A stretch of DNA of 64,000 bases, taken from an uncultured Flavobacteriales bacterium. Lineage in GTDB: Bacteria > Bacteroidota > Bacteroidia > Flavobacteriales_D > Sanyastnellaceae. Location: assembly GCA_938085425.1 (NCBI GenBank), contig CALKGQ010000028.1, positions 1-64,000 of the forward strand. The letters are read 5' to 3'. The notes below the pieces were generated by a model. The model ran no database searches. It saw only the letters and a list, made by a program, of their open reading frames with translations, and had not been told where the DNA came from. The translations under genes and the position numbers were made by a program. Positions 16,486-17,827 of the stretch are shown here, piece after piece; the first letter of the stretch is position 1, and every line of letters begins with the position of its first letter.

Positions 16486-16866
16486 TCAAAAAGGCAGGTC
16501 GTCGTCAGAAGCAGGAGCAGGTGCCATGGGAGGCACGGGAGGCATGGGCGCAGCGCTCACAGCTGGAGCTTGTGCCCCTTCCACACCTGCGGCCACAGGC
16601 TGGTCCGAACCTTCGATCCGCCAAGCATTCAGGTCGACATAAAAGTTGCCGTTGTACTCGCGTCCACGCAAATCAAACTTGACGTTGATCACGTCTCCCT
16701 CCGCATAACGTCCAAGTTGCTCCGACTTCTCTTTGAGGGCCGAGAACTTGATGTCTTGGGGGTATTGTTCCATGGTGGTGATCACAAAATCGCGCTTGTA
16801 AAATCCACTTGGGAAATCTTGCTGATCGAACAGCTTCTTGAGGGTTCCTTTTACTTCAAATGCCAT
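16486..16866 (-). CDS. DUF3127 protein with an SSB-like acidic C-terminal tip
   Basis: 126 residues. Start chosen at the ATG at 16866 (MAFEVKGTLKKLFDQQ), which gives the family's usual N-terminus; longer in-frame options lie inside the next gene. Residues 1-88 are a DUF3127 domain with strands VKGTLKKLF, FVITTMEQYPQDI, VINVKFDLRGREYNGNFYVDLNAWRI, an OB-fold-like pattern resembling single-stranded-DNA-binding proteins. Residues 95-119 are a flexible Ala/Pro/Met-rich linker. The chain ends DDDLPF, almost identical to the DDDIPF tip of bacterial SSB, which recruits DNA-metabolism partners. The domain function is not established; nucleic acid binding is inference. It lies between atoE and the flavin reductase gene. 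Confidence 0.9.
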   Translation of the reverse strand: MAFEVKGTLKKLFDQQDFPSGFYKRDFVITTMEQYPQDIKFSALKEKSEQLGRYAEGDVINVKFDLRGREYNGNFYVDLNAWRIEGSDQPVAAGVEGAQAPAVSAAPMPPVPPMAPAPASDDDLPF

Positions 16867-16882
16867 GCACCGAAGGTACGCT

Positions 16883-17827
16883 TCAACCGGCGTTGAAACA
16901 GAGCAGGGTTTTCCACGCTTCATCCACCATTCCGCGGTCCAGCAATTCGGATGCCATCCGATGAAGGACTTCCTCCAACGTTCTGCCATCGCTTTCGTGC
17001 TCCATGAACACCTCTGCAAGCTCCAGCAATTTGTGCTCATTGACGTCCGTTTCGTCGGGCATGGATTCGCAACCTCCCAGCATCGCAAGGTGGTTGCCGG
17101 TGAGCCATCGGCTCGTGCGGATGTCTTCGGGCAGGGCATCCACCCCCATGCCAATGGTGGCCAGAGGTTTGGGCACCGCAAAGAGGGCATCGCCAGAGGC
17201 ACGAACGTAGTGGTCGCCACCGCATCTTCCGACCAGGTCGAGCTTGGTGGCGTCAGGCACCCCCGCGTCGCTCAGGACATCGTCTCGGAAATGCATCCGC
17301 ACAATCTCCGCGAACACCAACTGACCTGCGCCCCCGTGATCTCCCAACGACTCCACTTTGACCACTTTGCATTCCAATTGCACCGGCGACTCGGCCACCC
17401 TTGGGGGCTGAACGGCCTCGGAATCGACCGGTGTCAAGCCCGCCTTCACAAACTCATTCACGCCCGTTCCGTAATCCGTGCTCGCCAGGGAGCACGCCTG
17501 AACCATTTGGTGGTCCACCATGTTGACCACCACCTCTGGCACTTCCTGAACATTGTCCCATGTATGCTTGGTGGTGCCATCCCTTCCTCGGCGTGCTGGT
17601 GAAAAAATAACCAACGGCGGTTGGGCAGAAAAGACGTTGAAATAACTGAAGGGTGCGAGGTTGACCTCCCCCTTTCCATTCACCGTGCTGACAAACGCAA
17701 TGGGACGCGGCGCAATGCCTCCGAGCAAGCAGCCATGGAGTTTGCGGGGCTCCAGATCGGAAGGCTGGTAGGTGGTGTAAGAACGCTTCACCTCAGGAAT
17801 GGCTTGGGCCGTGGGACTCCACCGCAT
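16883..17827 (-). CDS. Flavin reductase-like FMN-binding protein
   Basis: 314 residues. Residues 14-200 match the flavin reductase (DIM6/NTAB, Pfam Flavin_Reduct) fold: HGCLLGGIAPRPIAFVSTVN, NLAPFSYFNVFSAQPPLVIFSPARR, and WDNVQEVPEVVVNMV for FMN binding. About 110 further residues form a conserved-looking extension (HYVRASGDALFAVPKP ... SRWLTGNHLAMLGG) that I recall in Bacteroidota members. It probably reduces FMN with NAD(P)H or binds FMN as an oxidoreductase; substrate unknown. The ATG at 17827 makes it overlap purE by 35 nt; a GTG at 17791, right after the purE stop, would remove the overlap and leave the domain intact. Confidence 0.87.
   Translation of the reverse strand: MRWSPTAQAIPEVKRSYTTYQPSDLEPRKLHGCLLGGIAPRPIAFVSTVNGKGEVNLAPFSYFNVFSAQPPLVIFSPARRGRDGTTKHTWDNVQEVPEVVVNMVDHQMVQACSLASTDYGTGVNEFVKAGLTPVDSEAVQPPRVAESPVQLECKVVKVESLGDHGGAGQLVFAEIVRMHFRDDVLSDAGVPDATKLDLVGRCGGDHYVRASGDALFAVPKPLATIGMGVDALPEDIRTSRWLTGNHLAMLGGCESMPDETDVNEHKLLELAEVFMEHESDGRTLEEVLHRMASELLDRGMVDEAWKTLLCFNAG

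Follow-up and report, generated by a model that had tools for sequence, protein, structure and literature searches.

A DUF3127 protein of Bacteroidota with a predicted SSB-type OB fold and a conserved SSB-like C-terminal tip

In E. coli, more than 17 proteins dock on the C-terminal tip of the single-stranded DNA-binding protein (SSB), and in the case of RecO the proline and phenylalanine of the tip enter a hydrophobic pocket (PMC7145534). SSB-like proteins also occur in phages. In phage HK620, a DUF669 protein encoded beside sak4 proved to be a distant SSB, and it stimulates Sak4 only if its terminal hexapeptide, NDYPPF, is present (PMC5928155). Cellular DUF3127 is listed in Pfam as an uncharacterised DUF, and the SSB name has so far been given to phage members; the literature says of a Pantoea phage SSB that it contains a DUF3127 domain. 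Our literature searches found nothing on the cellular DUF3127 family, nor under PF11325, and none on the SSB tip in Bacteroides or Bacteroidota. For F. psychrophilum, a 2014 report describes an additional ssDNA-binding-domain-like gene with a product of unknown function, and the part of that report dealing with this gene states no link to DUF3127 (PMC3991886).

Here, we analyzed a DUF3127 gene in a stretch of 64,000 nucleotides from an uncultured Flavobacteriales bacterium (the window; contig CALKGQ010000028.1 of assembly GCA_938085425.1, positions 1 to 64,000). The gene, its parts and its upstream neighbor are as follows.

16486–16866, minus strand: DUF3127 gene, 126 amino acids plus stop, with matches to Pfam PF11325 and PHROG 4932.
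16606–16866, minus strand: predicted OB fold, residues 1–87 (AlphaFold2 model, Foldseek, VIA-align).
16507–16605, minus strand: Ala/Pro-rich linker, residues 88–120, predicted to be disordered (low pLDDT; poor conservation).
16489–16506, minus strand: SSB-Ct-like tip DDDLPF, residues 121–126 (sequence; family-wide PF end).
16883–17827, minus strand: flavin-reductase-like gene upstream of DUF3127, separated by a 16-base gap; name read from sequence.

A first-pass annotation of the window had proposed a DUF3127 protein ending in DDDLPF at this position, and the open reading frame, the PF11325 match and the C-terminus (...PAPASDDDLPF) all agree with it. PF11325 (DUF3127) matched residues 4–85 (E = 1.2e-24; 86.8 bits vs a cut-off of 27), and PHROG 4932, named “single strand DNA binding protein”, spanned residues 4–126 with the tip included (E = 4.2e-22). 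Searches of three proteins against NCBIfam gave no match. The SSB profile PF00436 gave no hit to the window protein at E-values up to 1 and matched only one of 59 DUF3127 family members, at E = 0.1. Because the PF00436 profile does not recognize the protein, DUF3127 is filed here outside PF00436, as an SSB-like protein that would work like an SSB.

With the bacterial SSB of PF00436 (locus L062 in the window genome; SsbA in other bacteria) DUF3127 shares the predicted OB fold, a disordered Ala/Pro linker, an acidic-LPF tip and an alignable RxW/RxY strand. Its OB domain is, however, shorter than that of bacterial SSBs (87 vs about 105–110 amino acids), and compared with L062 the linker is shorter and the genomic place is different, both genes being present in the window genome. 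The HK620 protein offers a parallel in that a “DUF” turned out to be a distant SSB, which adjoins an annealing-protein gene and ends in an SSB-like hexapeptide (PMC5928155). It differs in belonging to another Pfam family, in being a phage protein with the tip NDYPPF, and in having been tested in vitro and in vivo, whereas DUF3127 is known from sequence and model.

A single-chain AlphaFold2 model, calculated from 59 aligned sequences of the window protein and its relatives, had the topology β1-β2-β3-α-β4-β5 (β1, residues 3–17; β2, 23–31; β3, 38–44; helix, 46–51; β4, 59–71; β5, 74–86). Block pLDDT was 91–94 for residues 1–80, with 72 residues at pLDDT ≥90, and 47–60 from residue 91 onward, which predicts a disordered tail. 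All 50 matches listed in a Foldseek search against the PDB were SSB or PriB, and SSBs ranked first (best E = 1.6e-6). VIA-align superimposed the model on S. ruber SSB (5odn) with a Z-score of 13.1 (1.6 Å, 87 residues) and on the PriB-type structure 3klw (“primosomal replication protein n”) with the same score (1.9 Å, 85 residues). A profile–profile comparison with 20 Bacteroidota SSBs (probability 91.8, E = 7.5e-7) aligned KLKTRQW of SSB with DLRGREY of DUF3127; in E. coli SSB, the residue at the W/Y position of this strand stacks on the ssDNA. When the family profile was searched against PDB chain sequences nothing significant was found, the best match being 1se8, a single-strand binding protein (E = 0.095), and RhoGDI (E = 0.5–1.3) was taken as a chance match and rejected as a sequence relative. 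An SSB-type OB fold in DUF3127 is supported by the predicted model, which also backs the OB-like N-terminal domain of the first-pass annotation; the Ala/Pro linker named there is plain in the protein sequence. The SSB-like architecture as a whole (OB domain, disordered linker and SSB-Ct tip) finds support in the structure model, the structural search, the profile–profile comparison and the tip conservation described below.

With an E-value limit of 0.01, the window protein matched 121 of 50,697 phage records, comprising phages of Flavobacterium (76), Polaribacter (17), Cellulophaga (13), Bacteroides (5) and others. Phage members already carry the SSB name, by annotation, in PHROGs and many RefSeq records: three RefSeq phage records label DUF3127 “single strand DNA binding protein”, one of them citing Pfam PF11325, and two Polaribacter RefSeq records label it “hypothetical protein”. 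By profile, the PHROG 4932 phage SSB belongs to the same family as DUF3127, tip included, its SSB name being an annotation; in contrast to the phage members, which often lie among recombination and replication genes, the window copy is chromosomal and has a conserved housekeeping-type neighborhood. Among the 30 viral neighbor proteins that were scanned (of 96 listed, from 16 loci, mostly the larger or nearer ones), 19 had a DNA-metabolism PHROG match, including Erf, RecT-like and Sak4-like annealing proteins, Mu Gam-like proteins, a RecE-like exonuclease, NinG, primase and helicase. The other 11 included methyltransferases, a terminase and proteins without any match. At viral locus L074 (3301–4278), DUF3127 lies one gene from a protein whose second-best PHROG match is Sak4-like annealing (E = 1.6e-16); this resembles the DUF669 SSB of phage HK620 beside sak4. 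A search of 26 viral records that carry DUF3127, namely three named phages and 23 of the longer contigs among the 80 viral loci, found no PF00436. This is weak evidence because records may be fragments, longer ones were chosen and few phages match an SSB query (a single query matched only 2,291 of the 50,697 records). The idea that DUF3127 and PF00436 exclude each other in phages was considered and rejected, as 0/26 is not significant alone with so few phages matching.

The equal structural score of 3klw and SSB (Z = 13.1) could also be read differently, with DUF3127 as a PriB-like primosome protein, whose SSB-derived OB domain would load the replicative helicase at restart and whose SSB-type tip would hold PriA. 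DUF3127 would then be the natural counterpart of an engineered PriB-SSBc chimera, which gained ssDNA affinity and stimulated PriA (PMC8509808). PriB shares the OB fold with DUF3127 but is described in the same source as lacking a C-terminal tail domain, whereas DUF3127 has a conserved tail and tip. Moreover, Foldseek puts SSBs first, and several phage copies of DUF3127 adjoin annealing proteins or exonucleases, the reported place of phage SSB genes (PMC5928155). We therefore regard a PriB-like role as unlikely.

The window genome, a 2.07 Mb draft, contains one DUF3127 and two PF00436 SSBs. The main SSB (L062) has an Ala/Pro linker and ends in ADDLPF. The second PF00436 protein (L063; contig C34, 3688–3996) is short and has no tail; at least two PF00436 matches were also found in 47 of 60 relatives, where several of the extra proteins that were read are short and tail-less and a few have a tip (L290, L298). 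The whole genome was scanned for the tip pattern [DE][DE]-(F/L/I/M/V)-P-F-stop, with the same pattern read backwards as control. Three matches were obtained, one of which has TGG instead of a stop codon, leaving the main SSB and DUF3127 as the only true ones. Since the backward control gave one match, about one chance match per genome is to be expected; the scan alone is therefore no proof, which has to come from conservation within the family.

For this purpose, 198 cellular DUF3127 loci were pooled, of which four were dropped (two contained N and two were cut by a contig end), giving 176 distinct C-termini. The pool is non-random: it comprised the best-scoring matches from 395 phylum genomes and 60 relatives, the 80 nearest named-genome loci, 30 hand-picked weaker or distant loci and 27 more from relatives, and duplicate fetches of one gene were merged solely via the C-terminal 70 residues. 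The genome-search sets were gathered with an 85-position domain profile that ends before the tail; named-genome and viral loci were retrieved through patterns that lie outside the tip, although their ranking used the whole protein. Pro-Phe ended 173 of the 176 distinct C-termini from cells and 60 of the 63 from viruses, with two or more acidic residues shortly ahead of it in 171/176 and 48/63, respectively. All 60 readable sequences among the first 61 (best-scoring) cellular loci end in PF, as do 79/80 of the named-genome set, where the remaining one has unread bases, and 76/80 of the viral set before collapsing. Information content in the cellular C-termini was 3.3–4.2 bits at positions −5 to −1, 1.8 bits at −6 and 0.6–1.3 bits at −7 to −26, and the final Pro-Phe was more conserved than the acidic residues in both cells and viruses. 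Across 136 distinct C-termini, DDLPF is encoded by 73 different 15-mers, which argues for selection on the peptide rather than on the DNA. A conserved acidic-xPF tip after a disordered linker is a feature of the SSB family, and DUF3127 has it. The tip, on whose conservation the earlier reading had depended, is thus conserved in this comparison except in the lineage of loci L277 and L282.

These two loci are among three cellular exceptions to PF. The third, L416, has a reading frame that is broken ahead of the tail and an in-pattern tip just downstream. L277 (genome G006) and L282 (G001) belong to one Bacteroidota family, in which DUF3127 ends acidic without Pro-Phe (read in two of its four genomes) and the SSB of all four genomes searched ends in DDLPF (DDDLPF in three, NDDLPF in one). 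As DUF3127 lacks Pro-Phe and SSB keeps the tip in this lineage, the DUF3127 tip is not indispensable everywhere. Other lineage-shared variants retain Pro-Phe (DGEAPF and DGDMPF in L021 and L029; DHDVPF in L012, L020, L022 and L028). By eye, no co-variation of DUF3127 and SSB tip variants was seen within genomes: DUF3127 proteins ending in DHDVPF (G250) or DGEAPF (G102) are paired with an SSB ending in DDLPF.

OB folds bind many kinds of ligand, and the domain might bind RNA or nucleic acids in general, with the acidic tail serving as an intramolecular mimic that tunes binding, as in Hfq. Acidic tails can indeed autoregulate (PMC5606850). However, the most conserved part of the DUF3127 tail is its final Pro-Phe, which in the SSB tip enters the RecO pocket (PMC7145534) and which a mere mimic would not need, and we consider such a function very improbable. 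The reading of the tip as an end that arose incidentally or by chance and docks nothing is close to refuted: one lineage lacks it and the backward control also finds one site in the genome, but PF is kept in 173/176 cellular and 60/63 viral C-termini behind a poorly conserved linker and through many synonymous codings.

In the genome searches, DUF3127 was present in 222 of 395 phylum genomes and 57 of 60 relatives; its presence in every Bacteroidota genome is ruled out by the 173 phylum genomes without a match. Only Bacteroides ihuae matched among 14 control genomes. The best named-genome matches are titled Flavobacteriales or Crocinitomicaceae, and the first eight are 70–86% identical; the window genome thus groups with MAGs of marine Flavobacteriales type. 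The flavin-reductase-like neighbor had a tblastn match in the flanks of 68 of 80 loci (L150–L229), and a transporter-like neighbor (name read from sequence) was found in 43 of the 80 loci nearest to the window. That neighbors are kept in the nearest loci suggests that cellular DUF3127 is a vertically inherited chromosomal gene. The cellular neighbors (flavin-reductase-like, transporter-like, M16-peptidase-like and purE-like, all named from sequence) are no DNA-repair genes, and operon context was rejected as a pointer to DNA repair, on which these conserved neighbors say nothing. PF-ended DUF3127 also occurs on contigs whose titles name Verrucomicrobia, Akkermansiaceae, Puniceicoccaceae or PVC MAGs (L214, L220, L221, L225, L226). 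Either the family truly extends outside Bacteroidota, or these contigs were mis-binned or given a wrong label. L161, under the title Euryarchaeota, and L178 and L228, under Chryseobacterium gleum, look mislabelled. Extra DUF3127 copies were found in G394 (four matches) and in G351, G290, G232 and G045 (two each); the extra copy of G045 (L413) ends in TAQDQPF, a weak tip, and is possibly prophage-borne.

The tips of DUF3127 and SSB were compared in 63 genomes in which both genes were readable, namely 50 of the 60 relatives and 13 of 18 further genomes, the latter 13 placed by a FastTree tree. Seven genomes had no readable pair (G398, G399, G403, G404, G409, G415, G439), three had no DUF3127 (G430, G440, G450) and one had its main SSB only in pieces (G485); matching contigs identified G482, G488 and G489 as the same MAGs as G416, G397 and G400, and G416 was counted once. 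A tip was called strong if it consisted of PF with at least two acidic residues among the four preceding ones, a cut set in this analysis; a weak tip, for instance GDLPF, may well be functional. By this measure, the DUF3127 tip was strong in 62 genomes and weak in one, and the SSB tip was strong in 44, weak in 13 and without PF in six, these being related genomes and not independent events. As the SSB tip is strong in 44/63, DUF3127 is no general replacement for SSB. The SSB tip was also strong in all three of the 60 relatives that have no DUF3127.

The six SSBs without PF fall in three places of the FastTree tree: G422, whose SSB (L385) ends in MVEETEF, G412, whose SSB (L375) ends in DASALPL, and a clade of four MAGs (G416, G480, G483, G484; support 1.0). 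DUF3127 of G422 and G412 ends in DDLPF. G416, G412 and G422 belong to the family of the window, and G480, G483 and G484 cluster with G416. The main SSB of the four-MAG clade (L249/L329 in G416/G482, L331 in G480, L327 in G483, L325 in G484) has neither linker nor tip and ends right after the OB domain (MLDKKSGNTLPT, LGKKSDHSLSI, LDKKSDNSLSK and LDKKSDNSLPK). No SSB tail was seen in other reading frames in this clade, and the gene after the tail-less SSB starts at once, in another frame. All genomes with SSB tail loss are MAGs; that the tail-less ends differ among the four argues against one assembly error. DUF3127 of the clade ends in SDDDLPF and is 134–146 amino acids long, vs 127–132 in the nearest relatives. 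The SSB tips of these nearest relatives are mostly weakened (STETPF, STESPF, three GGDLPF), and one relative has GDDLPF. The SSB loci L322 and L323, in nearby MAGs, have the weak tips TESPF and TETPF. In a scan of G416 with the tip pattern, which does not cover every possible tip, DUF3127 was the only match with a true stop. The loss of the SSB tip where DUF3127 keeps its own looks like a division or takeover of the hub role, a more specific reading than competition for partners.

DUF3127 is probably a second ssDNA-binding protein with a docking tail, one that shares the hub role of SSB and may in places have taken it over. The analysis shows the conserved tip, the predicted fold, the genomic distribution, the viral context and, in some lineages, the loss of the SSB tip, and from these we infer ssDNA binding, oligomeric state, partner docking and hub takeover. 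Either as a homo-oligomer or in company with SSB, the OB domain would bind ssDNA at forks, gaps and breaks, and the disordered linker would present DDLPF to the SSB-Ct pockets of RecO, RecQ, PriA and the like. A RecO pocket that takes up proline and phenylalanine fits with PF as the least changeable part of DUF3127. In most Bacteroidota that have it, DUF3127 would work alongside a tailed SSB, adding or specializing docking sites, and competition for SSB partners or a sharing of them, as the first-pass annotation proposed, is plausible. In lineages with a tip-less SSB it would act as the main or only hub that recruits partners. Phages of the bacteria with DUF3127 carry their own copy in a recombination or replication module, as other phages carry SSB.

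More tentatively, and with somewhat less than even confidence, we suggest that many Bacteroidota have a two-protein ssDNA hub, in which the DUF3127 tip is the more faithfully kept one in the order of the window, and that at least one marine Flavobacteriales clade has split the tasks, so that a tail-less SSB would coat the DNA and DUF3127 alone would recruit repair and restart proteins. If many Bacteroidota do carry a second protein with this tip, interaction studies, genetics and inhibitor ideas that assume a single tailed SSB in each cell may not hold for Bacteroidota. The clade with the tail-less SSB provides a natural test of whether DNA coating and partner recruitment must share one protein, and a family of “unknown function” would gain a concrete and testable role.
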